In this document: positions 4,265 to 48,368 of the stretch, one piece after another
Layout of the letters: each line of letters begins with the position of its first letter
Position numbering within the stretch: position 1 is the stretch's first letter
From: Xestospongia bergquistia
Lineage: Eukaryota > Porifera > Demospongiae > Haplosclerida > Petrosiidae
Reading direction: 5' to 3'
Length of the DNA: 64,000 nt
NCBI GenBank assembly: GCA_963965975.1
Contig: OZ014417.1
Location: 7,312,821-7,376,820, forward strand
The notes under the pieces: model-generated
Told to the model about the DNA's origin: nothing
Databases searched by the model: none
What the model saw: only the letters and a program-made list of their open reading frames with translations
Position numbers and translations under genes: made by a program

Positions 4265-6373
4265 TTAAAGGTCAGTTTTCTTATCTTCTTCATCTTCCAT
4301 AGCATCCTCATTAGTAAGAACAGTAGTAGACTCAGATTTCTCATCTTTCTCCATCATAGTAGTCGTAACATAGCGAGGCTCTTCAGCAACAGCAGGCTAG
4401 AGAGAAGACAAGGTAAGTAAGTGTATCTGTCTGTATATTAGCATGGTGTGTGCATGCTCACACACACACAAGCATATGTGCGCTGTTTCACTTAATTTAT
4501 TAATCATGTGGATGGATGAATGAAAAATAGGACAAGACTTACATCACTAAGTGGTTGTTTTTCCTCAGAGCTACCTTCAATGTTCTTTGTATCAGTCAAG
4601 TACTTTCCGGATGTATCCAAACCATACTCTTCTTCTTTCTGTGATTGAGTGGTCCTAATTCGCACAGACTGAGAAGCTACTGCATATTTACCAGTACGAC
4701 CAGTAATACGACCTAAGAGAGTAAGCCAGATCTCACGAGTGTCTTCAGTTCGAACCAAAGTTAGAACAAACAGCAAGATAGAGTGGATGATAGCCAAGAA
4801 ACTAAAAATGTATTGGGTTGCAATTGAGCCATCACCAGTAATGTTGGCTTGAGTGCCAACTAAAGCAAAGATCCAGATGACATCAAATACAATTAAAAGA
4901 ATCATTCCAACAAAGAGATGGGTGACAACAGAGTCTTTGCGGACTTGTTTTTCAGCTGTGGTCATTGATGGAGAATGAGTTAGCAAAATAGATATGAGAT
5001 GGAGGATCCAAGTAACAATCGTCAATAAAACAATAGGAATGACATAGCCATAATAGAATGTAGCCTCCTGAGGTCGGCAGCTGAATAAGAGAAAGAGAGA
5101 GAGAGAGAGAGAGAGATCAATTCCTACAACATCTACTAAAACTTACAAAGCATTGTCCACAACATAATACTGATGTCCAGCTGCAGCAGAAATGATAACA
5201 ACCAGTGTAGAAATAACTGTAAAGGAAAGATAAGCAGTAACAGTAACATTAATGGAATCTTTAATGCACTTTACTCACTCAAGTTAGCAATGAGCATGAT
5301 AGAGAAGTAATAACGTGTAAATGGATTAGATCCAATGCCCATTTTAAGTTTAACAAAATAGAACAGTGCTTCAGTGAATAAGAACATAAAGTAGACAATA
5401 CTGAAGAAGTGAAAGAATCCAGAGAATACACCACAGAATCCTGTAATAAAGGGTAAATTACTATAATCTACTATCAGTAGTTCAGTAAGCCCTAGACTAG
5501 TAAATATCAGTACTTACTACAGTGACCTAAGATAGCTACCATTAGACTAGTGAGCATCAGTACTTACTACAGTGACCAGCTACCTTTAGACTAGTGAGCA
5601 TCAGTACTTACTACAGTGACCAGCTACCTTTAGACTAGTGAGCATCAGTACTTACTACAGTGACCTAGGATATAGCTACCATTAGACTAGTGAACATCAG
5701 TACTTACTACAGTGACCTAGGATATAGCTACCATTAGACTAGTGAGCATCAGTACTTACTACAGTGACCTAGGATATAGCTACCATTAGACTAGTGAACA
5801 TCAGTACTTACTACAGTGACCTAGGATATAGCTACCATTAGACTAGTGAACATCACAGTAACCTACTATATATACCATTATACTGATTAGTAAGCTCCAT
5901 ATCAAAGTGACCTAGCTACCATACAGTACCTGTCAGATCAGCAAATGTTGCTGCAGTGGCTATAAAGAATACAACATAGAGAACCAAAAGTGACAAATGA
6001 GATGCAACAAAAATACGTCCTTCAGGACAGTGACGTTGGGAGCTAGAAGAACAAACACAATAGACATTATTACAGAAAGTATGTGCTAGCCATTAGTTTA
6101 TTTTAATACTCATAAATTAACTATCTTTTTTGCTAACTATTCCCCAGATTCTCACAAAATCTCCCAATTATTATAAGAATGGACAGTCTTTAATATAACT
6201 TACGATGATGCAATGTGACTGATAACTGCCAGAACAATGAAGATAAGTGACAGACCCAGACCTACAAACAGGATAACTTGAGCCTCATATTCAAGTTCTT
6301 CAATTAGAGGAGGTGTGGGTGTAGGTGTGGGTGTGGCTGTAGGTGTGGGTGTGGCTGTAGGTGTCTCTACATC
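4265..6373 (-). other. Stalk, seven-transmembrane domain and tail of the receptor
   Basis: Exons: 6204-6373 (Pro/Thr repeat stalk plus TM1 VILFVGLGLSLIFIVLAVIS), 5930-6042 (TM2 SLLVLYVVFFIATAA), 5279-5440 (TM3, CGVFSGFFHFFSIVYFMFLF with the conserved Cys), 5147-5216 (TM4 TLVVIISAAAG), 4543-5080 (partner Cys in CRPQEATFYYG, TM5-TM7, proximal tail) and 4265-4396 (distal tail). Family B2-type TM3 H-F-F is visible. The tail is rich in acidic residues and serine/threonine and ends KKTDL, fitting a class I PDZ ligand (T at -2, L at 0). The Pro/Thr stalk is encoded by a GT-rich tandem repeat at 6308-6363. Confidence 0.95.
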
Positions 6374-9300
6374 CTATATATAATTGACAAATTAAATAGA
6401 ATTTGAGACATTTAAAGTAATATCTTTGACTATACATGAACATTAAAGCAGAGAATACTACATGTAATCTAATGTGGGCTATAGTATTAAGAAGATATTC
6501 CCTTACCTCAATGATAGTAAAGCTGGAGAGATGGTTACATGAACATTGAATAGTTGTGTCATTTGGATTGCTAGTCATAGTACATCCATCAGTGGACCAA
6601 TCTAAATCTAAATGTGAAAATAACAAAAGATTTGTAAACACACAAGAGCAGTGTTTAGTCTAAGCAGGTATTATCCAGTATCAGTATATCAATACTTACT
6701 TGTAATACTCCAAAAGACACAACGAGGTGTACCAGCAACATTTGTATTTCTTTGGAATGATAACTGAATAGAGTCTGACAAACCAGTGACAGTTATACGA
6801 GATCCATTTGAATAGACATCAGCAGATATGACAACACTAACTGTTTGTACTTGATTGGTAGTATTATCTCGTACATATAAATCACTGTCTGTAAAGACAC
6901 CAAATGACACACGAGCTGAGGCAATTGATCTTCCTTGGAACAAAGAGTTTGGCAAAGAGAGAGAGCCACTAGGAGTGGAAGAATCTCCTGACAGAGAATT
7001 GTCATCAAGATCACCATTGCTATTCAATTCTACAGAGAAACTAAGTCCAGTGAAGCTAGATACTTGAACTTGTTGAACTTGTAATGCTAGTTTAGAACGT
7101 GTAAATGTAATATTATCTCCTCCTCCAAGATTGACATTAGCTGCAATATTATCAAGGAAGTCCAAAGCTCTGAAAGAGAATGCATCACACATCAAGTAAA
7201 CGGTATTAGATTTGGAGTTAAAAGATTACATAAATTCCTTCTATGTGCATACTCACATAACAAGCAATGCATGTATCTACAATTGTTGGAAAACCATCTT
7301 ACTTTTGAGGTCCTCCAGTACTTTGCTGACTTCTTTGAAGGGCATCAGAAGGTACATCAAGTAAATTATCAACAGTAGTCAGTAAATCATCTAATATCTG
7401 CATGGAATATAGCGTATAATTATAGAGATGTATATGGAGAGGTTCTTAACTTACATCAGGATTATCAAGTGCATCGTCAGTAAATGTATCCAGTAGATCA
7501 ACAGTAATGCCAACATCAACATCACTGAAAGATGCAGCATTTGATGAAATACTTGATAACCGTTCAGCTGCATCAGAAGTATTGGCCACCTAAATAAAGC
7601 ATAAAATGATAATTCCATTTCTATTATCATATTCTCATTCCATTTGAGATGTCTGTGCTATTGTAAATCCCAAAACACATAGTTATTAGTCTAATCAGTT
7701 TATTAGTTTATAAACATATTTAAATTTCCATGCTATATACTTTGAATCCTAAATGTCTAACACACTCATTTGTCATTCTTAAAATTTCATTACTATCATA
7801 GTCACATTGGCATTCCTATTATTGTGGATAGCCTCAAACCCATTCTCATATACCCTCAATCCCATTCTTAACTTACAGTAGAGAGTTCACAGAGGCTTAT
7901 GGTAGTAGCATCAAATACACACTGAGCAGTATTTGGAGTGGTCCAAGTACCAATTGATGTAAAGTCACCAGTACAACTTCGAGTAGCAAAGGCACCAAAT
8001 GCTCTTGTCTAGAAATGAAAAAGGAACAATTCTTATGAATAAAGAGGAATAATAAGGAATATTTGGAAATACTGTGAACAACTGAGGAATATTACAGATT
8101 AAACAATGGAGAAAGGCTTACAATGTTTCCACATGGACAAGAGATTTGGACATTCTCTCCAATTCCAACTTCAGGCCATGTAATAGTGATAGATGTACCA
8201 GAAAATATCAGTAATGTTTCAGAAAGACATCCATCTGTAAAAAATTAAAGTATAGAACCAGTCCATTGTACATATTAGAGTAAAGGTACTAATTAATGTA
8301 TATATAATACAGTCTGTCCAGTGAAATCTGTTTGACTAGTACATTATTTTGCCCTTAAGATTCAGAAATTATTAATACTACTGACCAAATCTGGCTACAG
8401 GAGAGAAACTGAAAGAAGGATTTGATTGAGCCACTTCAGAGAGAATATTGTCAAGACCACCAGTAATTCCACTTGTATCAGCATCAACAGCAACACGCAT
8501 AGTGAATATAATCTGAAGTCTACAGTAGAGAAGTTGATTATAGACAAGTCATAACACATATACATTGTCTCTCTTTCTCTTACCTAGGAGATGTTAGAGC
8601 ACTGATGTTATAAACTATCACTCCAGGTGACACTTCTTCGTTGAGGAACATATCTCTTGCCTAAAATAAATTCATTCATCATACAATTTTGATAAATTCA
8701 TAAAATATTTCTTGTACTTAATAATAGTTACACATTAGTCTACTAATAATAGAACAGCAAAAAATGTGTGAAAAGTATAACTTACTTGTTCTACAGCATC
8801 TTCTATCGGATTTTGTCTCTTACGACGACTACTTGGATTGATGGTCACATTAGACAAGTATTGTCTTACATCTAGCATCAAAAAATAAAATAAAATAATG
8901 AGCTTAGTAATAGTAATAATATAGTAATATTGTATACCAATCCTTCCTTAACAAGCTATACAATATGAACATTTTGTCAGAATAAGAGAATTTCTCATAG
9001 TTAGGTAGCCATTTGTACAGATTCCAATATTACTCAGTAATTAACATACCTCGAATGGTGACTAAAACATCAGAAGACTGAGCAGTCCCTTCAGAGTTTG
9101 TCGCACGACATCTGTATTGGCCACGGTTATCAGGTATAACTTTCTCAATGACAAGGAAAGGCAGGTTTTGTCCATTTAAAACTTGTCCTTCTTTAAGCCA
9201 TTCTATTCTAGGCTGTGGAGCACCTGTTACTATACAGGTCAAATTGACCAGACTACCAAGCGTGACATTCTGAGGAGTGGGAGGAGTCACAATAGATGGT

Positions 9301-12300
9301 GGTGAATCAACAGTGACTATGGGAGTGAGAGAGAAAATGATAAGAGGAAATTGCTATACTATAATAGCCAGTTGTGTAGCCATACAATACATTATAATGT
9401 GATACATTTCAACATGTACATGTACTTGTAAGTAATATTAATGAAAACACTAAAGTGTCAAATCTTCATCACAGTAGTATAGCTAATCAATTGCAATAAT
9501 TTTAGTTTGATGTACTGCAACTGAGAACTTGTTCAAAAAAATTAGAACAATAGGCAACAGACTTTGTCTCAAACTTTAAAACTATTTTCTGCTTAACAAC
9601 GGAAACAAATTCAAATTTTAATCAAATTTATAGATCATTGTAATTTGTACATACAGTAATTTTGAGCAATCAAGTCTACTGTACTGCCAGTGCTTTTTTA
9701 TCAGAAAAACAGACAGAAATGAACAAAGCAAGTATTGTTATCCTCACCCAAACAAGAGCAGCAAGAGTAAAGTGTTTATTATCATAGTAATATCTCTTAC
9801 CAGATTGATCACAGTTGGTTCCAATAAAGCCAGCAAAACATTCACAATAGTAGCTATTGTCTCCATCAACACAATAACCATTGACACAAGGAGTTTGTTG
9901 AGTATTAGGTGGATTAATGAGACATTCATTACGAACTAACAGAGAAAGAGACAATATAATTTATGTTCTCTTAGTTATAGATGATTATAAACAATACATA
10001 TATAATGAAATATTGACATTATTAACTATAATTCAATTTTCTAAGTATATTTCCTTTTAAGAATACCAACTATAAAATAATAACCATTATATAACAACCT
10101 TACTATAAAGTGATCCCTAACTTAACTGTCAACTTACTTTGTACTGTCACAGTAAAGGAATCAGAGACTGAGGGAAGTACGATGTTAACGGGAGGTACAG
10201 GAGGAGTATGACAAGTATATATACCAGCATCTCCTTGACGAAATTGTTGGATTCTTAGATTGCTAGTGGTAGTATAGAGTAGTGTGGTGGGATTTTGTAT
10301 AGGAGTACTAGTATTGATTTCAACTCCTCCAGATGACACTAACAGTTCATTGTCCTTGAGCCATGTTATTGAGAGCCCTGGGAAACTATTAGCAACTGTA
10401 CAACCAAGAGAAAATGAGTTTCCTTCAATGATTGATGATGTAGAAGGGCGTGTTATAGTAATAGTTGGACGAACTGAAGAAAGAGAGAGAGAGAGAGATG
10501 AATTAAATATCATAGTACTATAGCATCGAAGGAGACTCACCAAACACTGTCAGAGCAGACATGCTAGTGTTAGGAACACCTATATAGTTAGTACCAGTAC
10601 ATCGATAGTATCCCGTATTCTGGAAAATAACATTTGATATGTACAATGTTGTGGTATATTCATAGTTGCCACTGGAAGTAAGATTGGAGACAGTATATTG
10701 TCCACCAGATGTAATACTTCTATTAAGAGATATAAAATACCACTGAACTGATGGAGCTGGATTAGCACGAAAGACACAAGTAAATGAAACATTGGAGTTT
10801 TGTAAGACTGTCACATTTGTTGATGGTTGAACTATTGCTGGAGGGACTGAATAACAGAAACAAAGAGTATAATATTAATCATGGTGGCTTAGAAAACAAG
10901 TCTATTAAATGATATTATTGATAGGGTACAGTTAGAATTATAACTAATAATATTAATGCGTTACTAAATATAGAATACTTACATAATACATTGACAGTCT
11001 CTGTTGTTGTATTAAGAACAGTTCTATTATATCTAAAGTCAGTAATATTGATGATACAAATATACTCTCCATCATCAGACAACAGGAGATTATCAAAATC
11101 CAGTACAACTTGAATAGCATCAGGATGACACACATATTGAGAATCATTATAATAGCATCCTGACCGTGTTAGACTAGTCACATTAATATTATATCGATCA
11201 GGAGTGTTGGTTAGTCTTTGGCCATTTCGATACCAACCAATGGAATTAACAGAGAAGTTACCAACTTGAAGATGTTCAAAATAAGCAGTACAAGTCAGTG
11301 AGAGTGTGTTATCAGGACCAACTATAGCCATACCATCACTCGTACTGTTTAAGAGGACTGCATCAAAAGACAAATGGATAAGAAAAAGATAATATAGATA
11401 AAAGTTAGAATGACCAGTAAAATAACAATACAATGTACATATAGGCCATCAACAAACTCTTTGAAAACCCTCAAACATAGCACACAACTTTGTTCTTTTA
11501 ACATGCTTCAATGTAAAATGTTGCCAATCTTTGCTAAAATAGAGGTAATTTTTATTTACACAAACACACAATGGTACCAATCCTACATGTACATACAATA
11601 GATAGAGACTTTAAAAATACTAATGGCCTCTTGTTGTAAAGTTGGTGAAGTGATTTATAGGCAACATCTATTATTTTACAAAGAGATAGACAAACAGATA
11701 GGACATTACCAATGACTGGTTCACAAGCAACTGCTGCAGCTTGTTGAGAAGTACAAGAGTTGAGTAAATCCCCGTTAATTGGAGTACAATTAGAGAAAGA
11801 GCCCTCGGCTCCATTACATTGTAAACCAGCTAGAACAGGAGGATAGGAGTTGCCACCAAATAAACCAGCTGTCAAATTTTGAGCCACTATAAATGGAATA
11901 AATAAATACTTGTAAATTAAAACAGTAACAGTTGAAAGTAGTAGTCTGTAATAGATTATTTCCATTCATTGCTATTTATTAACATTTTGTACATGTATTT
12001 ATAACATATCATTACATATAGGACAACAAATAATACCAAACATTTTATTAAATCAATTTTAGCAAACTAGCTTGTGGTATTTTAAAGTTCTATCTTTATA
12101 TGTAAACCTCTATTATTTTATAATCCACAAATGGTTTATAGCTCACAGTTTCTGTTAAATCCTGCCAGTGCACATGATACTGCAGCATCTTGTTGATCAA
12201 AGTTAGTACCACAGATAGTTCTCCATTCACCAAAGTAACAAAACTCCACTCTACCAGTATAGTTGTTAGGACCATCTGCTATCCTGACTGTTCCATGTCG

Positions 12301-15300
12301 ACACATACGTGGCACTGTAGAATAGATAAATGAATGAATTGATGGAGGGATTATAGATGAATGGATGAACAGAAGCAATGACATATGTTTTCATTTTCTA
12401 ACTTACCATCTATACAGGACAGGAATACTACACCCCCTTGGCTATCACATGTGTTATTACTCATGGACTGAGTGAAGTTACAATTATCATATTGACTGAA
12501 GATAGGACAAGTGATACTAGTAGCTACTCTTGTATTCATTGGTGTAGTATAGTTAGTAAGAGTACCAACTACAGGTCCAAGAGTATAATCTATAAGATGA
12601 CAAAACAATTAAAACAATTTAGTTTTGTTTCCAGTTGAAATAGACATTTTCTTCTAAATTATTATAATAATGATTTGCTACAATTCCTCTTCTCAGTTAC
12701 AATAACTTTATGGTAGTAGTCAAGACATATTTGATATTTTGTTATTATAGCTAGTCACATTACAATTGCATTAAAACAATGATTCAAACTGCTGATAAAA
12801 GAATTATATTTAGTGTACAACTATATATATATATATATATAATTATTTATAATTATACATGTTACTATTAATTACATATTATATACAATTATACATGTTA
12901 CTATTAATTACCTATTATATATAATTATATATTTTACTATTAATTACCTATTATATATAATTATAGATGTTACTATTAATTACCTATTATATATAACTAT
13001 ATATTTTACTATTAAGCTAACACACTTAGGTGGACAATGCCCCTATAATAACTGACCATAATATCCTGATCTGGTACAAATATAACGTAGGGAAATGTTA
13101 CTAGCACCATCTCTACATATTGGTATGTATTCATTATTATCACAGATCTCAATAAAACCAGATTGGATGTTATTATTGTTTATTCGACCATTTCCACCAG
13201 CAGTGAATGTAAGATCACGTTGATAACAGACATAATCTAAAAAAGAGAATAATAATTAATAATGTAATGTATGGCCCATGAAGTTAAATCTATGGAATGA
13301 TTCAAATACTGTTATATTAAGGAAAAGTATCTTTATTGTTATTTACTAGCTTTATAATGATATGACATTATACATGTGTAATTACACGAGCATTAGATGA
13401 ATTTTGTTATATTGCATAATTTGAACTATATACTGTATTACTACTGATTACTATACTTACTGTTAATACAAGAGATGATACTATTACCACCATATGCAGA
13501 ACAAGTTGTATCATTAGTAATTGTAACATTGCAGTTATCAAGATTACTTCCAGTTATTGGACAAGTGATGTTTGTAATAACATTCTGTCTAGTATTAATG
13601 CCATAGGTTTCTGTGTCACCAAAAATGGGATATGGGAACCCAATATAACTTTGACCACATACACGATTGACAATTGATGGAGCTTTAGGGGAGAGAGAGA
13701 GAGAATCAAATGCTTTTATTATTTTTTAGTAACTCACTTAAAGTATCATTACAGAATGAAGCATAGTATTCTTGTCTGCTACTGACACAAACTTCAGGTC
13801 GACCGATATTAAAAGAAAAGCCCATTGGATTTCTACCATAGCTACTAAATAAGAGCATGTTAGTAGAGTACCCAGGACACCTAGTATTATCTGAGTAAGA
13901 GTGAGTGAGGAGGGAGAATCATAAGAGAGCAAGTATTCGTATCACTTACTTCGACGGCATTGTAATACAACATCCCCTTGTTCATCTACACAGTTTGAAG
14001 CATTAACTGGAACTGCATTGTTAGTACAATCAGATAGTGAATAAGAGTTATTACTACACACAAAGTTAGAGTAGATTCTGTCAGTGTTAGATGACCCATA
14101 CAAAGTGGAATTGTAAGGTAAGAATGTGCCATCTGACGTATAGAGAGAAAAGAGAGATAATTCCTTCATCCATGTATGAAATCATTTTTCCATCCATTTA
14201 TCTTATTGAATACATACTTCTAAAGTTATAGTTAACATCAAAACATGCCAAGTCAGCAAACTGTTGACTCAAACTACTAGTATTACAGACTGAAGTCCAA
14301 CGACTATCAATACACACTTGAAGTAGACCAGACACTAGAGCATCACCATTAGGAAGATAGCTCACTCTTTGATTAATTATACGAGCATTACCACTAGAAC
14401 ATTCTAAAGAAAGAAATACCATGTCAAATTTAATCAATGTTTGTCACTTAGTATGACTAGTAACCAATGTCTTACTTTACTTAGCAACCAATGTCCTATT
14501 CTACTTAATAACTTCTACCTAGTAACCAATGTCCTATTCTACTTAATAACTACTATACACAGTAACCAATGTCCTATTTTACTTAATAATATGAAACTGT
14601 ATCCCTATTAACCAATGTCCTATTTTACTTAATAATATGCAACTGTATACCTATTAACCAATGTCCTAGTAACCAACGTCCTATTTTACTTAATAATATG
14701 CAACTGTATACCTATTAACCAATGTCCTATTTTACTTAATAATATGCAACTGTATACCTATTAACCAATGTCTTAGTAACCAATGTACTAAATAACTTGT
14801 GTTTTACCAAATTAATTACTTACCTTCAATACAGCGTACTACAACTCGTCCACTGGGGCATTGGTCAATAGTAGATACATTATATGTACAACCAGCAAGA
14901 TTATAGCCACTATTGTGACATAAGACATTAGTAAGGACAATACCACTCTCACTCATACTATAACGAGATGACCACGGCACAATGGAATAGTTAGCACCTA
15001 AAAATAGAATATTTCATGTAATAAAAATGTTTGAAATATGATGAGAATTTAACAGAGGACAACAATGGGACAACTTAATTAAAGGAATTTCCTCTTTTTA
15101 GAGAGCCTGGGATATAACTGATATCTTTAATTGTCAAGTGTTGGTTTCACAATTTGTTATACAATTCTAATACCAAGAGACTAATGTATAACAAGAAGTT
15201 ATCTGTGTATCAATCCAAACCTTAAACTTTAGAAAAGTCAATTACATAGTTCATATTAGGTCATAGTTTCTTTGTAAGCTATTATTAAGACTAATAATGC

Positions 15301-18258: not shown

Positions 18259-18291
<33 letters not shown>

Positions 18292-19083
18292 TTAATCCTC
18301 CACATTACTAATACAAACTTACAGTTCACACATGTGATAACAGGACTATTAGGAAAGGACTGACAGCCATTGGTACTTGAAGACACCTCACGATTACAAC
18401 TAGAGAGATCATAGTTCAAAACTGGACATGTCAAATTAGATATAACAGTAGTGGCTACACTGTTTACACCAAAGTCAGATGTATTACCAATAATAGGATA
18501 AGGACGACCACCTATAAAGAAATAAAATTGTTAAAATACAATGTGTGTTTATAATTCTATCTATTACTCCAGATAAAAATGATATATACATATAGTAATC
18601 CTATAAATATTATTAATTTAGAGATACTTTTATCTGTTAGTACAGTTTGTAAATGCTCTAGAAATTTTAAATGCATAATAATATAGTTAGTTATATAAAG
18701 TCAATGTCTTCTTTAATTTAATGTAAAGTTTAGAAAAGTCTTCTAATTCTAATCCAATAAATATAATCTGATGTCATTCATTATTTTCTATAACTCAGTT
18801 ATATAGTATTACTAGACTATAGAGCTAGTCAGTATCTATATAGTATACTACACTAACCATAATATCCTTGACTAGAGCCACAGAAAGTCACAGTTTCTGT
18901 TTGATTTAAGTCTGTACAGAATGGAGCATAGCTACCATTTACACATATCTCTGGTCTTCCAATTATAAAATATGTACTGTTAAAATATGTTCCATAGCCT
19001 TGTTCAGCTAAACGAGTGTTATCAGATGAGCAAGAATCTGGTTGAGAAGCTAAAAGCAACAACAAAAAAAACAAAGGTATTAC

Positions 19084-19119
<36 letters not shown>

Positions 19120-20524
19120 TGACATAGAGAGACAAAGAGAGACACAAAAAGAGACAGAGACTTACAAACACAAGTAATAACAGCAGGTCCTCCATTATTA
19201 TTACATCCATTAGTACCAGTAGTCAAATTATAAAAGCAACTATAATCATTCCAAGAGGTTACACCAGAGTTACAAGAAAGGTTGTACACACCAGTAGAAG
19301 TATAGTCGTAACGTAATTGATTCCCTTGACCAAACAAAGCATAAGGATAGCCCACATAACTACTGCCTAGAGAAGCCTGACAGAGAACATTAGCAACTTC
19401 GGCTGTTAGTCCATTATTACAGACATCAGTGTAAGTTCTATTAACACAAACTTGAACATTTCCAATTTGATAAGTAGTTCCATTAGGGTATTGTCCATTG
19501 ACATAGGGAGTTGAATAATAGTTGTCACCAAATCTCACACTAGGAGAATAGCATGTTTCTCTGGATAAAATTGAAGCTAAAAGAAGTTAAAAATAATTGT
19601 TAATCTATATAATTACTGTTCAAATATCTGTTTACTGACTATTCACCTATTAATCTATTTACTTATACACTATTATCCATCCATCAATTCATCCATACCA
19701 TCATAACAATAGAGTACAGCACTGTCCATATTATTAGTACACAATGTATTGTTAAGTTGGATAGAACAAGATGAAGGATCGGAATAAGAGTATTGAGGAC
19801 AAGAGAGATTCAGGTACATACTAGCATTGCTCATACCACCAGAAGGATTACTAGAGATAACACTACCATCTATAAAGAAAGTATCAACATCACTACTTAA
19901 TACAATTGTAGATAAGTATATGATGTTCCTTTATCAACGATATACTAGAAATGTTTTAATATGCACTTACTTGCATAGCCAAATTGTCGGCAAAATATCA
20001 TGGCATCCATCTCTGTGATACTTCCACGACAAACAGAGCCCCATCGTCCTGAATCACAAAATTCTATAAAACCATAAGTTCCTGATGTCCCATTTTCATA
20101 ATAGCTAATAGACGTTTGTGTGAGACGAACTTGACCATAATTTTTGCATTCTATAATATATAAGGTACAATTTGTAATTAATAATACAAATTAGTAGTAG
20201 TACCAAGTAAATGATAAATGTTTACAATATTAACTAATTATGCTTATTATTGTTAATTCTAGTTATAAACTCATACTTAAATTACACAATTTAGGCATTA
20301 GGTTATATAGAGTCTCATCTCTATAATTATATAGTATAGATGTTACCTCCTATACAGTTAACTGTTAAAGGTTGAGCAGTACATTGTCCCATACTGATAG
20401 TTCTATTACAATTGAAAGAAGAGAATCCACCACTCCTGGGATCATTTTGACAGTAATGAAACACAACATTAAGATTAGAGTCGGCTGAAGAGTATATTGT
20501 ATTGTAAGGGATGATTGTGTAGTC

Positions 20525-20559
<35 letters not shown>

Positions 20560-23500
20560 ATGCTAGCAACAATAACAACAATGATATCTTACTTAAGGTA
20601 TAAGAACTTTGACTACTGCAGGCACTACTAGCAAAGTATTCAGAATATGATGTATCACTGCAGACATCAACAAAATTGTTATCAATACAAACTACAACTC
20701 GACCAGTATAGGTAAATGGACCCAGAGGTGACTCATATTGAGAGTAATTAGCTAGAGTAACAGAGCTACCACTACATTCAGTATCAGAGGTTCCTATAAA
20801 ACATATTAAGAAAATGATACATCCAGTAAATTGACATTAGTCCATCTATCTTGTCTGAAGAACCATTCATCATTTCCTTTGTTCAACTATTCTATCAACT
20901 CACTTATCCAACCACTCATTCAATTCAACCATTAAATCATCCAACCATTCATCACTTTATCATCTCTCTTTCTTTCTCATCCACCCAATCATCAATCCAT
21001 CCATCTATAGCCATTCACTTACTCTCAATACAAGTCAGTACAGACTCATCACCATATGAACTACATCCTCCATTACCCATTGTATAGTTACATCCACTAA
21101 TATCATTGGCTTCAGGAGAACAAACAATATTTGTTATTACTTCATTTTCGTATACATAATAGTCTGAGGGCTTTCCAATATATTGACCCCAAAGAACTCG
21201 ATAATTACCTATATATAATAGAATTATATATTATATACAATAGTTATGGGACATTAATGTTCACTAAAGAAGATATACATAATATTGATGAAACATTATT
21301 TATTCACATATCTATGCATGCTACGCCCCACCCCCATGATTGCAAAAGCTATCATTGTTAATTAAAAACTAGAGAACCATTCAGCTAAATCTAGAATTTG
21401 TTTCATGTAAGAACTTATTCTATTGAAGATTAAGGCATATATATTTTTAAAGGTAAAGTCACAAAAATGTCAGCAGACTATGCATTACAAGCACAACTTG
21501 ATGTTAATGGGAGAACATGTAATTTTTACTCACTACAGTTAATTAAACAGTATGTTGGTTAGTAAATAATAATTGTCTTCCTATCAATTCTGGTCCTCAA
21601 TACAACAAAAAGAATACAACAAAAACTGTAATGTGTCTATCTGTTACAAATCAATCAAAGGTGATACAGTATCTGATATACTCATGTAATATCAAAATAT
21701 AAATATTGTTTTTTTTTTTATGTTGGTCAAATTCTCACCAGAAACAGCATTATCACAAACACCATCCAAGGCCTCTGTGTCTGGTAGGGAACCTCCTGTA
21801 GTATTCAATCCTTGGCTACATACTTGATAGAAAGTATCATTGACACAGACCTCTACACGACCAGTTTGTATTGAAGTACCATTGGCAAATGAGAAAGTAC
21901 TAGTGTTACGAAGAGTAAAGAGACCAGCACAAGCCGGAGTGACTAAGGAAGGAAGGTTACATCATAATTTTGAATGCAATACATTTATTTAAAATTCAGA
22001 ATTTAAAGGAGAGCAAAGTTAGGACCATTAATTAGCTAATTAATAATGTTAAGAGATAAATGAAAGTTTGTTTAGGTTAAAATGTCAAATACACTGAGCT
22101 AGACCCTCCCCTTGGCTGATACATGAGAAGGGTCTAGCAAGCATGAAACAGCTTCATTTACTGCAATATATCAGAGAACTAATAACAAAGTTTACTTCCT
22201 ACCACCCACACATATAATCTGAGTAATGAAATCAGATTGGTCAACTTAAATTTAATCAATCGTGATCTTTGCTAGACCCTTCTCATGCATCAGCAAAGAG
22301 GAGGGTATAACTTGTTAGACTAGACACACACACACACTCTCTCTCTCTCTCTTTATATAAATATATTTATCTTACTTCGAGTACAAGTGGCATAGATGAC
22401 AGAATTTTGAGAAGTACATGAGCTGTTAGTAGTATTTGTAGTAGTATTAATATTACACATTGGTAGAAGAGAATAGTTAGATGGACAATTAATGGAATCA
22501 ATGATAGGACCAGTATTTGATCTAAATGTTGTATAATAGGATGATCCATCTAGTAAAAGGAACAAAGAAGATAATTAATTTAACATACAATATAAGAGCA
22601 ATTAATAATATAAGATTAGTAAAACAGATTTGGTAATCAGTAGATTAATCAGTAAAATAAATAATATAATTATGTTCCTGGATGACCCAATCAAATTTTA
22701 AAAATTTATTTCTTTAATATCAATGCTACAGAGTAATGAACATTATATTGATACAAATGTTTAACCTCAGCTGTCAGGCTCAGCATGAAACTCATAAATT
22801 AAATGTACTCTATACACAGAGGGAATTTAAGTTACACATACATAATTTATCACACAGACATGATTATGACAATAATTTATCACACAGACATGATGTATAT
22901 ATATTGTACATATATTTGTACATGTATATTGTAGTCTACAAACTGCAGTGTACAAAGAATATGATATCTAGTTCTTACTGTAATAGTTCAGTTGACGACA
23001 GGTAGCATTCACTACAGCAGTAGCATTGAGATTGGCATCACTGTGACCACATACATAATGATATTCATTGTTATAACAGACCTGGAGATAACCATTAATT
23101 CTTTGGACACGTCCACGGTAATTAATATCGAAGTTGGTATAGTTGGGAAAAAGTCTGACATCTCCATTAGTACAGAATGGAACTGGTGTGACTATAAGGA
23201 TAATAAATATGACATTAGAATAAATAGGTTTGTTGCTATTTACTATATTTGTTTGACTGCATGCAAACACACAGACACACATTCTCTCTCTCTCTCTCTC
23301 TCTCTGAATCTTTTACCTCGTTCACATAGAATGTATAGGGTAGCATTATGAGTACTACAGAGACCATCAGTAGTTGTGTTAATAGAACAATCAGAGAAGG
23401 AGTTAACATTTATAGGACAATTAATGGTATCAATGATGGGATTATTTTGTGGTGAAGAAATAGAATTGTAAGTACCAGCTGAAAAGAAACGAGAAATTAT

Positions 23501-25961
23501 AAAATCAAATTTGTAACTAAAGTTATATGTCCCAAACGTAAAGTTATACTTATAAAAAAGTACAGAAAGATCTACAGTGTTTGTTAAAATTAAATAATTT
23601 GTGTTGGACTAACAATAAACCTTCATCCAATTATTAAACAATAATTTATCAACATAAATCAATAATGTACATTTACTCTCTATAATACAGTAACATTGTT
23701 AAGTATATAACTTACAGCTATAACCTAAGAGTTGACAGGTACTCTGTGTTACATTATATAGATCATAGTTGATTTCACTCTGAGCAGCACACACAAAACG
23801 ATATCGATCATTAGTACATATTCGAAGCAATCCATTAATATACTCAACAAGTCCACGAGAATCAGTTAAGTTATAAGTAGAATTGACATAAAGTTGAATT
23901 TGACCATCACTACATGTTTCTATAGCTACAGAAAGTGATAAAATATGACTCTTTGTGATTTAATATGTCTAACAATGATAAAAAATGACATGATACATTA
24001 TGTCTTATATATTACTCATTATGACACATTATGAGACGTTATAGTCATTATGATTATGACTCATGATGACACAATATGACTCTTAAACATATAATACTTA
24101 CAGTTAAGACATGTTATAATAGTCACATCATCATGAGAAGTACATTCTCCAGTATTTGTAATACCAATACTACAAGAAGATAGATTAGTAGTAGATTGTG
24201 GACAAGAGATAGTGTTAATAATAGTGCCCGGAGAATATGGTCCACTGTTTGGAATAATATAGGCAACTAATAGAGAGAGAATAATACCAATAATATTTAG
24301 TTGTTAATATTGAATATAATTAATATAATACTGATTCTTTACACATTGACTAAAATCAGCCATCTTTTCAATTCTATTGTAATAGGTATGCATATTGCTA
24401 CTAATAATGTAATTTTATATATACATGATGATGTATTCCATATATATTTTATATAATATACATGTGTAATAATAATTATAGCTTTTCCAATTTTCCATGT
24501 ACGTTGGATAAATAACAACACTAACATTATTAATAATAGGAAGAGTACACTTACCATCTCTATATCCCAAGTCAGTACAAACAATTTGTGCAATTGTATT
24601 ATCAATAGAAGCAAAGGTATCATTAGCACAGATACTGTAGTATGTTCCATTATAACACACTTGTAGGTAACCACTGATGCCTTGATATGGAAAGCCATCA
24701 CTAGGAGGAAGTGATGACTGATATTGTATTCTGTACTGGCCATTGTAGGAGCATTCAGATGGTGATGGAGTGGGGGTAGGTGGAGTAGTTGAAACTGAGA
24801 GAGAGACAGAGAGAGGGAAAGAATCAATTATTCACATATTTATACTCTCACTTACTACTTGTACAAGAGATAACGGCATCACCACCATAACTATTACAGC
24901 TATCAGTACTAACAACCATGGCAGTAGCAAAGTTACATGAATAGTATTCGGTACAGTTCAAGGAAATAAGGACTTGTTGAGCATTTGTAGAGTTTCCATA
25001 CATATCTCTAGAACCACCAATAGGATATGTGTAGATAAATCGATCTATGGTAAGAAATCAAATAATAAAAGTAACTAATAATGTCATATTATAATGATAT
25101 TACAATGAACTGCTTTACTAGTTAACTGTTGTTATATGCATGTAATGTACAATTAATACCATTCTTGTTAATTTCCTTTACTATAATAGCTAGATATACT
25201 ACAGTATATATATCAGTAATATTTACTGCTGTATCCATATGAACTGTAGCAGATATATTCAGCTAATGTTTGGTCCAGAGCATCATTACACACTGGAGTA
25301 TAGGTATCATTGATACATACTTCAACACGACCTACAACAACACGGCTACCATTATTGAAATATCCAGAGCCAGTGTTAACAAATCTAGTTTGAGTCCCAA
25401 AACATTGATATGGTTCTGCAGAGTAAGAAAGTCCATGTAAATGCATAAAAATAGTTTCAGTTAAATTTTAAACTACATATAGAAAATATAGATGCTATAG
25501 AATATAGAATAAATATAGAAAGTTGTATAATATAAACTTTAAAGTATCAGATTATAATCTTTTTCCTTAATCCTTTACCTTGTCGACATGTGACTATACC
25601 AGCTCCATCATAATTTTCACAGCCATTACCAGTTTGATATAAACTCTTACAAACACCAAGATTGGAAGCATTCATTGGACAAATATAGTTATATACACCA
25701 TTAGTGGTTAGAGCAGGAAAATAATCAGTTGTTTCATTACCAAACAGTGAATAGTTATAACCTCCTCCAGGATAATTGACTCCACTACATATCTCCATAG
25801 CTTCAAAGAGACCTAGTCTATTTGAACAGATAGCTGCATAAGTGTAGTTTGGAGTACAATATAAAGGATAACCAATATGATATTGAGTGCCATTGGAATA
25901 GGAGATTGTTGCTTGATCATTTAGGGACACTGATTGACTTGAGTAACAGTTATTGTCAACT

Positions 25962-26001
<40 letters not shown>

Positions 26002-29000
26002 TTGTAAACATATGCACATAAAGAGACACACAAATATTATGCCAATTTGTTCATTGTATAGCTAGTATCCATGGAAAGTACATACATATAATACTAATAC
26101 ATTATGGTACATATAACACTAATACATTATGATACATACATATAATACTAATACATTATGGTAATACATATAATACTAATACATTATGGTACATACATAT
26201 AATACCAATACATTATGGTACATATAACACTAATACATTATGATACATACATATAATACTAATACATTATGGTAATACATATAATACTAATACATTATGG
26301 TACATACATATAATACTAATAAATTATGGTAATACATATAATACTAATACATTATGGTACATACATATAATACTAATAAATTATGGTACATATATACAAT
26401 ACCAATATATTATGGTACATATAACACTAATACATTATGGTACATACATATAATGCCATACCTGCAACACATTGTATGATAGCATCAAATTGATGTGAGG
26501 TACATGATGGATCATCAGTAAAATTGTAAGAACAATCACTGAAGGAAGAGAAGTATGAAGGACAGATGACATCAATCAGGACTTGGTCAGCATCACTACT
26601 ACCATATGAAGAATCATATTCAAAGAGCGTACCACCTTAAAGAGGAGAAATATATAGTAAAACTCTGTACATCAAAGCAAAGCTAGTACTAATGACATAT
26701 TGATTTCAGTAAAATCAGTAAAACATAGTTAAACAAATTATATAAGTCAGTATACTAGAAGAGATTAACCACGTGACCTACCAGTGTAACCAAGATCAGA
26801 ACATGCAGCTTGAATACCCATTAGATCTGAGTCTGTCAAATTACTGCCATCATAACATATAGAAGACCATTCTCCATTAACACACACTTCAAAAATACCA
26901 GCAATAGCTAGTGTACCATTACTTAATTGATAGGTATTGTAGTTCAAAATCCTTGCATCACCTTCAGTACATACTGTGTTAAAAAGGAAGAAAACGAAGG
27001 GAGAAAGAGAAAGGAATAGAATAAAAGAGAGGGAGCGAGAGAGGAAGTAAGAGAGAGAAGGAGGGAGTAAGAGAAAGAGGGAGAGAAAGAGGGAGGGAGG
27101 AGGGTAAAAAAGGGAGAGAGCATTATTGTATGTAAAGATCAAAATACTTTTACCTTCTCTACATTGCACAATGACCGGTGTACCACTGCAATTACTGGAG
27201 ATATTATAAGTACAAGAGCCTAAGTAGCCATATGGACAGTCTAAGTTGCTAGCATAGAGTCCACTAGAATTGCTACCATAGAGATCACTATTCCAGGGGA
27301 TGATTGTTGCAATACCTAAAGTTAATAGGATGTAATTACTATTTATGCATCATTGAAGAGACATCCATATATATAATAGTTACAGCAAAGAACATGATGG
27401 TAGACATTGTATTTAATGTTGCTAATGTACAAAATATGCAACATTAGTGTATGTAATGGCATATTTATACTGTAAAGAAAAGATCAACACCTTAAAATAT
27501 CATTTCTATGGAAATTCTATATTATCCATTAATCTCACTGTTTCTGTAGCCAGCATTATTGCAGGCAAGTGTAGTTAACTGTGTGACATTCAAGCTATCA
27601 CTGCAGATATCAACATATTGCCCATTATTGTCACAAGCTTCAAGTCTGAATGTTGTAGTTCGTCTTACAGCATACTCCATAGTAATTTGATAAGATCTTT
27701 GGAAATTACCAGGAATACATTGTTGAGCTAGTAAGAGACAGACAGAGAGAAAGAGAGAGTTATTATAGCTATAACTTGGAATGGTAATTGTGTGTTACTA
27801 ACCATTAATACATGTGACAACTCCATTAAATCCACTAGGACAGGAACTAGATACATTGTAAGAACATTGACTGTCAAAATCAGTGATGTTATCAGGATTA
27901 ATAGGACAAGCAATACTAGTGAATACAATATTATAAGTATAGTTTGTTAAGTTATAATCTTGGAATTGACCAAACCCAGGAGATGAAAATCCACCACCTG
28001 TAGAGAGAATATTGAATACTTTTAATCATCTTAACAATAGAATCATCTATGAAAACATTGTAATTACAGTGTCACTATTATTATTAACAAAAGTTAGGCT
28101 TCTAGTTTTATACTCAAGGGTGTACAAGTGGATAACATACCATTATATCCAGAGCAGAAGTAATTAGCATGATCTTGAGTGATGCCAGACAAACAGATTG
28201 GTCGATAGATATTATTATAACAGACTTGAGGCACAGCCACATTGAGTGAGCCTCCATTGGGCAAATTAAAGTATGCATTATTAGCAAGTCTATAGTCACC
28301 ATCATTAGTACAGTAGTATGGGTTAGCAATAACTAAAGAAAAGAAAAAATGAAAGAACACTAAGTAGTCTCCCATCCTCTAAACAGTCCCATTCAATGTT
28401 GCTTAACATCAATGATAGCCGAGAGGCTAGACCACTTGGCTGTCACTGACCTCCTACAATCCTACGTAAGTCTAATTATTGTGTTATAATAATCTCTTAC
28501 ATCTTCTGCATACTATATATGCATCACCATTAATGTCACATGTACTAGTATCATCCACATCAATGTTACAAGAGCTTAAGCTTGAGTAGCTATCAGTACA
28601 ATTGATGTAATTGATGATAACAGAATCATCCCGCGATCCATAATTTGGTCCCAATATGGCTCCATCTGTGTATGAGCATGTATATGCATGCACAAATGTG
28701 TGCATGTGTGTGTGTGTGTATGTAAGAGAGAGATCAAGAGACAAAGAGAGACAGAGAAAAAGACAATTGATTATTGAAATATCATTAATCAACTAAGCAT
28801 AAAATGTAGTGATGTGTGCAATTCTATTTCACTGTCAACGACTGTCATTACATGAGTCTCTTAATCTAATAAGAGATATATTGTATATTACATGCACAAT
28901 TCTATTTTACTGTCAAAGCCTGTCATTACATGAATGTCTTAATCTAATAAGAAATACATTGTACATTATGTTAATATTAATAACATGTGTTAATTTAGGG

Positions 29001-29813
29001 ATTTTCACTAATACAAGATAAGGATTAAATTTTATATAGTATAGGCTAAAAGTTCATTTCATACATCAGATCAGGTATGTCTCAGAGGTCAAGTTATTAC
29101 ATGTACTAGATCTAACAGATTTAAAATTTTAAACAACATTATAATTGAAAAAATCATCCTATAATTGTTTTTTACTGACTTAGCAGTGAAACACTGACTA
29201 AGTTACATAGATTATATAATTTAGCAGTAGAGTCTACAAGCTATAGGATGCTAGAAAGAATGATCAGTCAACACCCACTGTTGCAACACTCACAGTTAGG
29301 GCTAATAAAATTCATTGGTTACTATATGTATTGTCAGTTAAGTTTTATTTCATTTGTCACTCTCAATTGTCACATAAAAAATATAAAATAACTATAATAC
29401 ATAACATGTAGTTCAAAATCATTATAAATTATTATTTATCATTATTGCCTGGTGCACTGCATATGCCAGGAAGTAAACATGATCGAAATAAAATAAACTA
29501 TAATATAATGTATAGTGAACTATAGTCACTTACCATAGTAGCCTAGATCTCTGCAGGCTCTTTCAGCTACATAATCATCAATATAAACATCAGTACCATT
29601 CAAACACACATTAATAAATGTGTTGTTATAGCACAACTCAAGGAGACCATAAACAATTTCATATGAACCATTTAGTCCAACAACTTCAGTGTCCATCTGA
29701 CGATATTTCAAGTTAACTTGTCCTTTGTAACTGCAATAACTTTGTGAGTTTGCTAGTAGGACATAACTAGTTAATAATAGAGCTATGAGGGTAATCACTA
29801 ATGAACCCTTCAT
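4265..29813 (-). CDS. Giant adhesion GPCR: 23 SRCR, Ig x4, EGF, HormR, GAIN/GPS, 7TM
   Basis: I could chain 64 coding exons from ATG at 29811-29813 to TAA at 4265-4267. Every junction uses GT..AG and keeps phase; the exon sum is 12,636 nt, exactly 4,212 codons (4,211 aa plus stop). The start is supported by a signal peptide (MKGSLVITLIALLLTSYVLL, then Ala-Asn-Ser-Gln before the first SRCR). Order: SRCR 1-23 (to about residue 2896), Ig 1-3, EGF, Ig 4, RRKR site with SEA-like segment, HormR-like, GAIN/GPS (to about 3817), Pro/Thr stalk, seven transmembrane helices, cytoplasmic tail. GAIN/GPS plus 7TM places it firmly in the adhesion GPCR class. The ligand is unknown; SRCR and Ig arrays suggest extracellular recognition. 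Component blocks and exons are listed separately. Alternative: two or more genes; against this, no internal signal peptide or stop interrupts the frame chain. Confidence 0.9.
5492..5873. repeat. 50-60 bp tandem repeat in receptor TM2/TM3 intron
   Basis: About seven copies, recognised by the plus-strand motif cagtacttactacagtgacc. On the sense (minus) strand each copy contains GTAGTAAGTACTG, which resembles a 5' splice site. The array fills most of the intron between exons 5279-5440 and 5930-6042. Confidence 0.9.
6507..7589 (-). other. GAIN domain with intact GPS cleavage site
   Basis: Exons 7455-7589, 7303-7397, 6700-7169 and 6507-6607. The helical part (AERLSSISSNAA..., LDDLLTTVDNLLDV) is followed by the beta part and the GPS: CVFWSITN, WSTDGC, CSCNHLSSF. 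All four GPS cysteines and both tryptophans are present. The HL/S tripeptide supports autoproteolysis between Leu and Ser, giving a tethered agonist starting SSFTIIE. Two AGs compete at the last acceptor (6607 or 6603 region), which changes only a residue or two. Confidence 0.95.
7877..8234 (-). other. Hormone-receptor-like (HormR/HRM) domain
   Basis: Two exons (8122-8234 and 7877-8008) encode DGCLSETLLIF...TITWPEV...ISCPCGNI...FATRSCTGDF...TWTTPNTAQC. The spacing of C-W-CP-C-W-C matches the HormR module that precedes GAIN in many adhesion receptors. Assigned from pattern and position. Confidence 0.65.
8386..8871 (-). other. Furin-type site and SEA-like segment
   Basis: Exons 8786-8871, 8584-8660 and 8386-8519 follow Ig4. 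They carry SSRRKRQNP, a canonical R-x-K-R furin consensus, then IEDAVEQARDMFLNEEV and a beta-rich stretch around LQIIFTMRVAVDAD. SEA-type domains occur at this position in some adhesion GPCRs. The SEA assignment is tentative because no clear GSxxV autocleavage motif is visible; the basic site is directly visible. Confidence 0.55.
9050..11357 (-). other. Ig-Ig-Ig-EGF-Ig block of the receptor
   Basis: Each domain occupies its own exon with phase-1 borders: Ig1 10983-11357, Ig2 10541-10846, Ig3 10138-10473, EGF 9801-9935, Ig4 9050-9316. Ig motifs are clear: cysteine in strand B, Trp in C (SIGWYRNG, PSVQWYF, SITWLKD, RIEWLKEG) and D.G.Y.C in F (DDGEYICI, NTGYYRCTG, DAGIYTCH, NRGQYRCRA). The EGF shows six cysteines ending YYCECFAGFIGTNCD and lacks an obvious calcium-binding DxxE start. 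The symmetric phase-1 exons allow shuffling. I infer that this block forms a stalk between the SRCR array and the cleavage domain. Confidence 0.93.
12820..13018. repeat. AT-rich tandem repeat in SRCR22 intron
   Basis: A (TA)n run is followed by four to five copies of a roughly 38-40 bp unit containing gttactattaatta. It lies between the two exons of SRCR domain 22. Confidence 0.8.
14440..14800. repeat. 45-bp tandem repeat in SRCR19/20 intron
   Basis: Repeated aaccaatgtcctattttact units, six or more imperfect copies, fill the intron between exons 14824-14997 and 14218-14403. I see no coding content. Confidence 0.85.
19166..19576 (-). other. SRCR domain 13 in a single exon
   Basis: A 411-nt exon encodes the whole domain (MRFGDNYYSTPY through GGPAVITCV). 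The sequence that would flank the usual mid-domain intron is fused as ASLGSSYVGYPYALFGQGNQ. Together with domain 5 it is one of only two intronless repeats in the array. Confidence 0.85.
22101..22306. mobile_element. MITE-like inverted repeat in SRCR9/10 intron
   Basis: The arm at 22101-22140 (ending gagaagggtctagcaa) is inverted at about 22267-22306 (starting tttgctagacccttctc), with a spacer of about 125 bp. Length and structure fit a small non-autonomous inverted-repeat element; no transposase is present. Target-site duplications were not resolved. Confidence 0.55.
25579..25959 (-). other. SRCR domain 5 in a single exon
   Basis: Both halves of the domain, from VDNNCYSS to GAGIVTCRQ, lie in one uninterrupted 381-nt exon. 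Most other domains are split by a phase-1 intron after the GYYG-like position. The intron has either been lost here or was never gained. A long (CT)n tract on the sense strand precedes its 3' splice site (plus strand 25968-25999). Confidence 0.85.
26085..26456. repeat. 24-30 bp tandem repeat in SRCR4/5 intron
   Basis: Repeats of acatataatactaatacatt with variable gg/tac linkers, about a dozen copies, end immediately upstream of exon 26462-26635 on the plus strand. On the sense strand they therefore begin next to the 5' splice site. Confidence 0.9.
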
Positions 29814-44059: not shown

Positions 44060-44228
44060 ACCTGTTAGTAACGGATACCCTATACCATGTTATAGTTTTA
44101 GTACGTCCCTAAGATTATGAGGCGAAATAAAAGCACTGCAATTGTATATAATAATATATATTTGTTGCTTCACGTCTTCTTTTCAAACATCAGCAGTAAT
44201 AAGTTCTTAGTTACCCGACGAAGAAGAA
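44060..44228. promoter_or_regulatory. Head-to-head spacer (bidirectional promoter), unit A
   Basis: The 169 bp between divergent start codons must hold both promoters and leaders. By eye it is identical to the unit B spacer over its whole length. Confidence 0.65.
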
Positions 44229-45040
44229 ATGGCTGAAGTTGAGACTGCTTTGCGTAAATTATTCGGCAATGAGGTGCTCAAAGGCGATATTGATAAACTC
44301 GGAGGCGACGGAAAAGTGATCGGCGTCTACATGCCCGGGCGTTCGTCTCCAGATAGCAAGGAATTCACATCAAAATTGACTGAACAGTACGAAGAATTCA
44401 AAGAAGTTCATAAAGACAATTTTGAGATCATATTCGTTAGTTCAGATAAAAACGACCTTGATTTTAGGCTTCATTTCGAGACTATGCCTTGGGCTGCACT
44501 ACCTTTTGTGATATGTCAGGAAAAAAAAGTATGCAATCAGAAAATATAATTTAATATTATTTTTTGTTATAATTGCAGCTGTAGGTTTGATTATTAAGTG
44601 AGAGCTCTAACAATAATGATTGTAACAATATAATTTTTACTAAACTAGTTTTCCTTTAAAAGTAGGATCATATTATGCAGTTTAATACATAAATTGGTGT
44701 CCAGTACCTACTTCATTTTTCTTAGCTGTGTACTTTCCACTTAGAAAATCTTAATGTGGACAGACTCTATCTTTGTATCTAGTCTTACAATTTATTTTTT
44801 AGTACATTTACTAAATAATTTATTTTCATTCACATCTCAAATGTGAAATAAATTTATTTCTGTTTTTCTTTCTTGTCATTTTAGACTAAAATTAGCGAAA
44901 AATATAATATATCTGGTTTTCCAGCACTTGTCATTATTAATGGAGCTAACTGTGAACTGTTTAAAAATGATAGACGTTCTATAATCACAGATGTCAATGG
45001 AGAAGGCTTCACATGGTTGATGGAGACTTTGTTAAAGTAG
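44229..45040 (+). CDS. Truncated nucleoredoxin-like protein, unit A, no CxxC
   Basis: Exons 44229-44528 and 44885-45040 give 151 aa: one thioredoxin-like fold. Nucleoredoxins are cytosolic and nuclear thioredoxin-family proteins that regulate partners such as Dishevelled. The active-site loop reads GRSSPDSKEF where unit C has GHWCPPCKQF, so both catalytic cysteines are gone. The frame is otherwise open, with the conserved FVSSDK, TMPWAALPF and GFPALVIINGANC segments. Exon 1 lacks 12 codons relative to unit B. A 25-nt deletion shared with B causes the early TAG after METLLK, and sequence after it still resembles unit C coding DNA. It may be a decoy or binding protein, or a pseudogene that keeps its frame. 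Confidence 0.75.
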
Positions 45041-45387
45041 ACAGCTAGCACTGTAGTACCATATGATGGCATAATGGATTTATTTTGTAATATTAAATAA
45101 TTCATGTGCTATTTCACATCTTTACACTCACTTATTTATCACCTGCATATTGAGGTTCAGTGCTTTATGTATTAAATATTGATAGTTATTAGTAATGTAA
45201 TATTAATTAATCTAAAGATAAATATTGTCAGTACACTTTTAAATTATTTTAGTATTTGACTAATTGTTCCTTTTCATTTAAACAAACTATTATATATTAT
45301 ATTAATATAATAATAACAGATGAATAATTATTGTTTAATTATGTACATTATAGAATCTTATAAAGCTCAATTGTTAGCATTTTCTTG

Positions 45388-48207: not shown

Positions 48208-48368
48208 ACCTGTTAGTAACGGATAGCCTGTATCACCTTATGGTTTCAACACGTCCCTAAGATGATTAGTCGAATAAAAACACTATATATATTATATATA
48301 TTTGTTGTTTCACGTCTTCTTCTCTAACATCAGCAGTGACAAGTTCTTGGTAACCTGACGAAGAAGAA
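48208..48368. promoter_or_regulatory. Head-to-head spacer (bidirectional promoter), unit C
   Basis: The 161 bp spacer is homologous to units A and B but with several substitutions and small deletions. It keeps the TATA-rich stretch and the gacgaagaagaaATG context. Confidence 0.65.

Follow-up and report, generated by a model that had tools for sequence, protein, structure and literature searches.

In the genome of the sponge Xestospongia bergquistia, a 64,000-nucleotide stretch of one contig (C7:7312821-7376820, here called the window) carries on its minus strand a long row of SRCR exons followed by exons resembling an adhesion GPCR, and the question raised by this locus is whether these parts form one receptor and, if so, what such a receptor could recognise. 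We found that the locus is best read as a single gene of 64 exons at window positions 4265..29813 (minus strand), whose 4,211-aa product combines SRCR, Ig, EGF, HormR, GAIN-GPS and 7TM parts, as indicated by a splice model, Pfam searches, the predicted protein P0023 and a set of tandem paralogs. A single gene running from the SRCR array through the 7TM region is highly probable. The original prediction of one adhesion-GPCR chain with 23 SRCRs was upheld by the collinearity of P0023 and by the paralogs as the best reading, alongside a possible second start. Taken as a whole, the explanation that we favour with moderate confidence is an SRCR-array recognition receptor of the adhesion GPCR type, one of a tandem set, which would signal through a tethered agonist.

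The window is A+T-rich (G+C 27-36% per 2-kb bin), and a sponge origin is also suggested by its relatives, by the expansion of SRCR and by genes with many introns. Exons were joined with a dynamic-programming splice model that was trained on clear exons, set a lower limit on exon length and used GT/GC-AG ends. Three runs gave 68, 67 and 65 exons, the last of them beginning at ATG 29813, and exons 35/36, 44, 60, 61, 63 and 64 were corrected by eye from the three frames. The final model has a coding sequence of 12,636 nt with a single, terminal stop and 63 introns (55-868 bp, median 146), all with GT-AG ends, and it reproduced the 64 exons, the exact codon total and the 4,211 aa predicted for this locus. 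The accompanying claim that every junction is in phase is true of the model; however, since all 48 exons from 2 to 49 are of phase 1-1, any subset of them joins in phase, and in-phase joining hardly tests whether the gene is single. Checks were provided by P0023 for exons 33-64 and by the tandem paralogs for all exons.

P0023 is a JGI predicted protein of 2,119 aa from a 9,582-base contig, known as protein alone. It is collinear with window residues 2160-4211, beginning at SRCR 18 and ending with the C-terminal KKTD[LF], with 878 of 2,105 alignment positions identical (42%), and the alignment spans 32 exons of the window gene (33-64), crossing the junction between SRCR 23 and Ig 1. When the coding length is subtracted from the contig, 3.2 kb remain, against 5.7 kb of intron sequence in the corresponding part of the window gene; thus P0023 likely represents an intronless transcript. 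The second support for one chain came from a search of the whole genome (146.5 Mb, 21 contigs), which revealed same-strand copies on C7. Exon-by-exon mapping across 150 kb beside the window yielded two complete paralogs on the minus strand, B (C7:7218912-7190752; 72 exons, 23 SRCR, 12 Ig, about 5,060 aa) and D (C7:7300673-7256286; 113 exons, 42 SRCR, 16 Ig, about 7,817 aa), with Ig numbers counted by exon type, and both repeat the domain order from the signal exon to the 7TM tail. The third support was a divergent locus on contig C3 (C3:8417625 to about 8425700, minus strand), where Pfam matches and their order describe SRCR-Ig-EGF-Ig-HormR-GPS-7TM within about 8 kb and the SRCR again stands directly before Ig. 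Our confidence in the single gene stops short of certainty because P0023 is a predicted protein only and because a second start is possible.

The joined protein was cut into three pieces for the Pfam search. SRCR (PF00530, cut-off 26.1) was matched with 242 bits (E=4.4e-73, 9 stretches) and 176 bits (E=2.4e-52, 7 stretches), giving 16 stretches at E<=1 against the 23 units that we counted. Ig_3 (E=5.2e-44, 4 stretches), GPS (50.9 bits, E=2.2e-13, cut-off 22.5) and 7tm_2 (38.5 bits, E=1e-9, cut-off 20.6) were also recovered, so that these predicted domains were confirmed, whereas the predicted EGF (E=0.0026, exon 48) and HormR (HRM, 19.7 bits, E=0.0011, cut-off 26.2) stayed under the curated cut-offs. 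The EGF is nevertheless aligned in P0023, and the HRM match has the expected place and order, ahead of GAIN. Neither SEA nor GAIN models were among the Pfam families reported for the joined protein. Hydropathy indicated a signal peptide and seven transmembrane (TM) helices, with one weak additional hydrophobic segment (aa 1969-1987) within an SRCR.

Read along the minus strand, exon 1 (29534..29813) contains the start codon, the hydropathy-predicted signal peptide MKGSLVITLIALLLTSYVLLANS and the first half of SRCR 1, and paralogs B and D begin with this exon as well. The 23-SRCR array occupies exons 1-44 (11710..29813), as defined by the splice model, Pfam and cysteine columns; it consists of 21 exon pairs and the undivided exons 9 (25579-25959) and 24 (19166-19576), and it holds 104 N-glycosylation sequons. 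Pfam places Ig domains 1-3 in exons 45-47 (10138..11357) and Ig 4 in exon 49 (9050..9316), with the EGF-like exon 48 (9801..9935) between them. Exons 50-52 (8386..8871) encode a furin-type site, RRKR (aa 3385-3388), with counterparts in P0023 (RQRR) and in the EukProt protein P0021 (RRRR), and a segment with no assigned fold that may be SEA-like, by position alone. The putative HormR lies in exons 53-54 (7877..8234) and is followed in exons 55-58 (6507..7589) by the GAIN region, identified by the Pfam GPS and by its match to solved ADGRG6/G2 chains. In the GPS (about 6507-6725) the pattern C..W..W..GC..C.C.HL|S is intact, with S being aa 3811, and the Stachel-like SSFTII forms the end of exon 58. 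Exons 59-63 (4543..6373) comprise a Pro/Thr-rich linker, the seven TM helices and the start of the tail, on the evidence of 7tm_2, hydropathy and alignment with PDB 21du/7wui, and exon 64 (4265..4396), placed by the splice model and P0023, encodes the cytoplasmic tail with a KKTDL end (KKTDF in P0023). In a sequence search of solved structures, the GAIN-to-7TM part aligned best with ADGRG6 (E 9.2e-19) and ADGRG2 (5.9e-18), and the GPS motifs coincided in these alignments. The protein thus has the 7tm_2 domain and the GPS with HL|S after a GAIN region that define an adhesion (class B2) GPCR, and multiple SRCRs together with 7tm_2 in one protein, as defines a sponge SRCR adhesion GPCR; judged by these sequence criteria, the gene product is a type B2 GPCR.

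All 23 SRCRs of the window gene have exactly eight cysteines in eight aligned columns, and eight were also counted in 22 of the 23 SRCRs of B (one has nine) and in 42 of 42 in D. Six of them we take to be the group A set, while the two extra ones lie at the domain start and in strand 2 (as in RVEVC). A two-exon domain is a criterion of group A, and 21 of the 23 units have two exons and the six cysteines, plus the two further invariant ones. Group B domains also have eight cysteines, one of which lies soon after the motif CRxLG, as in the CRQLGC-like sequence of CD163, and this assignment was rejected: no unit (0/23) has a cysteine there, and the residues at this place vary and are often GY. 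Sponge "group C" SRCRs, described in a 2024 survey (PMC10855680; this and the other papers cited are represented here by parts of their text), have one extra cysteine without an internal partner, for which external bonds were proposed. The strand-2 cysteine, which may correspond to the extra one of group C, occurs in 23 of 23 units together with the N-terminal cysteine.

The relation between the two extra cysteines was surveyed in 20 SRCR-rich loci among the best SRCR matches of the genome, the scan being limited to domains with near-classic motifs (171 domains, 136 unique). Where the strand-2 cysteine was present, the N-terminal one was found in 113 domains and 8 were unjudged by the rule (by eye, 6 have it and 2 are cut or partial); where it was absent, the N-terminal one was also absent in 11, 3 were unjudged, and 1 has the last cysteine of the preceding domain. 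The co-occurrence in the sampled loci suggests that the two form a pair, although the surveyed domains are related by descent and the co-occurrences are therefore not independent events. We infer a fourth intradomain disulfide, with its N-terminal partner near or outside the Pfam boundary. Such pairing would offer an intradomain partner for the cysteine that the 2024 paper proposed as a receptor cross-linker.

As to function, the product is probably a recognition receptor, and we are only slightly less confident that it would signal through a tethered agonist. Recognition of microbes, particles or self is its likely role. Self/non-self or microbe sensing would be reasonable by analogy with SRCR biology, and a microbial rather than a self ligand is possible, if somewhat disfavoured. 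The sequon-rich array could bind repetitive ligands in a multivalent manner, the candidates being polymers on the surface of bacteria or, in the sponge, matrix and cell surfaces, with the Ig and EGF domains acting as a stalk. The GAIN region would cleave itself at HL|S, the halves staying together, and furin processing at RRKR may create a second non-covalent joint. Engagement of the array, or a pull on it, could then strip or loosen GAIN and expose SSFTII, which would dock in the 7TM bundle and activate a G protein.

Several observations weigh against this interpretation or against the gene model on which it stands. The spacing from S3811 to TM1 (3850) is 39 residues, Pro/Thr-rich and longer than is usual between GPS and TM1, the GPS of P0023 is without two of its four cysteines, and the HRM and EGF matches are sub-threshold. 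The gene model was partly hand-made, with the figures of the original prediction known in advance. P0023 could also be a spliced DNA model; it starts in a Ser/Thr-rich stretch with no signal peptide and bears on exons 33-64 only. In addition, the reading frame opened by Met 11965 crosses a hydrophobic stretch, enters exon 44 and, via the donor of that exon, continues in frame into exon 45. With respect to microbial ligands, the available text on Halichondria panicea includes no GPCR among the genes responsive to lipopolysaccharide (PMC8242945), and GPCRs were down in Dysidea avara (PMC6208332).

The alternative that survives best, and which we regard as doubtful though worth retaining, is an adhesion, allorecognition or matrix receptor, whose array would bind sponge cells or matrix and whose GPCR part would read mechanical tension instead of microbes. 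The Ig/EGF stalk, HormR and GAIN resemble those of cell-adhesion GPCRs, ADGRG6 is the best solved match by sequence, and SRCRs occur, according to the original prediction, on an aggregation receptor of Geodia. On the other hand, some sponges show responses of SRCR and GPCR genes to cues from microbes (PMC6208332, PMC11229196), in data that do not cover the window gene itself. It is rather unlikely that the protein is mainly a scavenging or uptake receptor, the array capturing particles and the 7TM part chiefly driving endocytosis with little acute G-protein signalling. Such a role would suit the filter-feeding of sponges on bacteria, the long GPS-to-TM1 linker and the degraded GPS of P0023, and GPCR-driven endocytosis has been proposed for placozoan adhesion GPCRs with lectin domains (PMC6321704), but the GPS and the Stachel-like segment are intact in the window gene (A) and in B and D.

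The recognition receptor that we favour belongs to a set whose members vary chiefly in the length of their arrays and share a nearly constant core, which we attribute to the symmetrical phase 1-1 exons, since these would permit unequal exchange to gain or lose whole domains in frame. Compared with the 23 SRCRs and 4 Ig domains of the window gene, the array of D has the block of exons 16-32 repeated and five extra blocks resembling exons 29-32 (36-62% identity); one exon pair of these extra SRCR blocks scored 39.7 bits with Pfam SRCR. The Ig exon pair 46-47 is present seven times in D, five times in B and once in the window gene, and the single copy is likely the ancestral state because P0023, too, has one in its alignment with the window gene. 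At the DNA level, exon-46 copies are 95-98% identical within and between B and D and 83-85% identical to the window gene. The corresponding values for exon 47 are 95-100% and 85-87%, except that the last copies of the two arrays form a type apart, 99% identical between themselves and 80-83% identical to the rest. The exons of B and D have GT-AG ends and are free of stops until that of the tail exon, in which the reading frame closes two residues earlier than in the window gene.

To compare substitution rates with the window gene, the first copy of each exon was used (exons 2-59 and 61-63, in six groups). The ratio of nonsynonymous to synonymous rates (dN/dS) was 0.48-0.52 in exons 2-44 (2,754 codons), 0.47-0.52 in the Ig exons, 0.23 in EGF, 0.37 in exons 50-58, 0.30-0.35 in exon 59 and 0.57-0.60 in exons 61-63. 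With values of 0.23-0.60 in all six groups the copies therefore look constrained, and these averages gave no hint of positive selection in B or D. Paralog D, at its estimated length, would exceed the largest human GPCR, which is reportedly ADGRV1 with about 6,300 aa.

Two further related stretches were seen on C7. Copy C is a 3' fragment within one of two exactly adjacent 21.6-kb direct repeats (C7:7220014-7263289, 99.98% identical), one of which contains the 3' end of D, and this repeat may be either a recent duplication or an assembly error. Gene E, reading leftwards from C7:7185357, has the same signal exon and SRCR exon blocks typed 14-15-29-30-31-32-29-30-31-32; no GPCR end was found in the approximately 22 kb read, the mapped stretch ending before the 3' end of this gene. 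In-frame change of array length among paralogs on a near-constant signalling core is apparently new. As a tentative proposal, the tandem genes could form a germline-encoded recognition system whose diversity arises from a domain accordion, in which unequal exchange and gene conversion, perhaps with exon-pair splicing, act over a fixed GAIN-7TM core; if so, array length would vary from one individual to another, in the manner of other allelic recognition systems. Inflation of the paralogs by assembly error, affecting the repeats of D and the copy C, is improbable: the nearly identical direct repeat around C is possibly a false duplication, but the repeat units of D differ from each other, both in the exon-46 copies and in the five SRCR blocks, all 42 D units keep the eight cysteines, and the window gene is independent of its paralogs.

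The possible second start was located among the ATGs between exons 43 and 45. In this alternative first exon (11710..11965, minus strand), an in-frame Met is followed by the hydrophobic stretch MEIIYYRLLLSTVTVLIYKYLFIPFIVAQ (11887-11965) and then by exon 44, and a start here could give an array-less form. The 29 residues of the stretch are identical in A, B and D, which says little because the introns of the three genes are alike anyway, and among the 19 ATGs listed between exons 43 and 45 none reads straight into the exon 45 frame. It is very unlikely that the locus comprises two genes or products joined only on paper, with exons 1-44 coding for an SRCR-array protein and exons 45-64 (or the part from 11965 on) for an Ig/EGF/HormR adhesion GPCR. 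In favour of this reading, a false fusion would keep the frame through the phase 1-1 exons, the start at 11965 is in frame with exon 44 and shared with B and D, a further ATG (11504) accompanied by hydrophobic residues lies in intron 44, though not in the frame of exon 45, and gene E combines the signal exon and SRCR blocks with no GPCR end in the stretch read. Against it, P0023 spans the junction as one protein, SRCR stands immediately before Ig in B, D and the C3 locus, and the start at 11965 would fall in the middle of SRCR 23.

The single-chain receptor in the window has relatives elsewhere in the genome. In the divergent C3 locus two SRCR halves were tested, of which one scored over and one under the Pfam cut-off, and its HRM match (20.5 bits) is sub-threshold. 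The genome contains at least 150 GPS motifs (all 150 listed are over the cut-off), each of which need not be a GPCR, and among these matches clusters are found on C1, C2, C3, C4, C5, C7, C8, C10 and C15; for Amphimedon, 40 adhesion GPCRs have been counted (Krishnan 2014, PMC4302439). When the 150 listed GPS matches were compared with the best 150 of 163 SRCR matches, at least 12 GPS had a same-strand SRCR match upstream, at a distance of no more than 12 kb, versus 1 with a match downstream and 0 with one upstream on the other strand. Nine of these 12 belong to one C3 cluster (7.92-8.42 Mb) that includes the divergent locus, with the SRCR 4-8 kb upstream. The number 12 is a lower bound, because the window gene itself was missed, its SRCR exons being outside the best 150.

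Other features of the window were named by eye. A CDK9-like kinase gene lies at 1763-3587 on the plus strand, and about 2.3 kb around it are duplicated (97%) immediately left of the window. Repeated nucleoredoxin/tryparedoxin-like exons, some with WCPPC, occupy 44211-53396 on the plus strand, and a minisatellite of about fifteen 24-base units is located at 756-1130. Pieces of a large RNF213-like protein (AAA and RING) are found at 54600-63516 on the minus strand; RNF213 is an E3 ligase tied to antimicrobial defence in vertebrates.

Among known receptors, ADGRG6/GPR126 and ADGRG2 resemble the window gene as the best solved matches from GAIN to 7TM, by a search score, which is not a phylogeny. 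ADGRG6 also has a furin site ahead of HormR-GAIN, but the ectodomain tips of both differ from that of the window gene, being CUB/PTX in ADGRG6. CD163/M130 and DMBT1-type proteins share the tandem SRCRs, and CD163 was the top profile match (E 3.2e-35), although in nine CD163 domains the residue aligned to the strand-2 cysteine is not a cysteine; unlike the window gene, these array proteins have no 7TM. The sponge group C SRCRs (PMC10855680) have, as here, six shared cysteines and an extra one absent from group B, but the SRCRs of the window have eight, including one that sits close to or ahead of where the Pfam domain begins, and two exons per domain instead of the three given for sponges in that survey, where 7tm_2 appears in a table of SRCR-gene domain types. 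In placozoan adhesion GPCRs (PMC6321704), a pattern-recognition domain is likewise set on a secretin/adhesion 7TM, but it is a C-type lectin and not an SRCR domain.

The union of SRCR with an adhesion GPCR, which had been regarded as an unknown combination, has in fact been published in two animals, and the C3 locus adds a further example. Amphioxus adhesion GPCRs carry SRCR ectodomains (Nordstrom et al. 2008, PMC2246102), in another animal and with no long array described in the text available. Closer to the window gene are Aq712029 and Aq715659 of the sponge Amphimedon queenslandica, adhesion GPCRs that combine 7tm_2 with more than one SRCR repeat (Krishnan et al. 2014, PMC4302439); Ig, EGF, HRM and GPS also occur on sponge adhesion GPCRs according to a figure legend of that paper, and both could be partial models of genes like the one in the window. 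The portions of the same paper that we consulted give no SRCR number, length, exon structure or variation of arrays between tandem copies, and neither tandem SRCR adhesion GPCRs that vary in the length of their arrays nor an SRCR GPCR of this size was found in the literature searched, which included few subscription papers and no supplements. Thus, what was a known but little-described class of SRCR adhesion GPCRs is represented here by a defined locus in an early-branching animal, a tandem family in which a constant signalling core is combined with variable recognition arrays, and the question of how sponges distinguish symbionts, food and self becomes directly testable at this locus.

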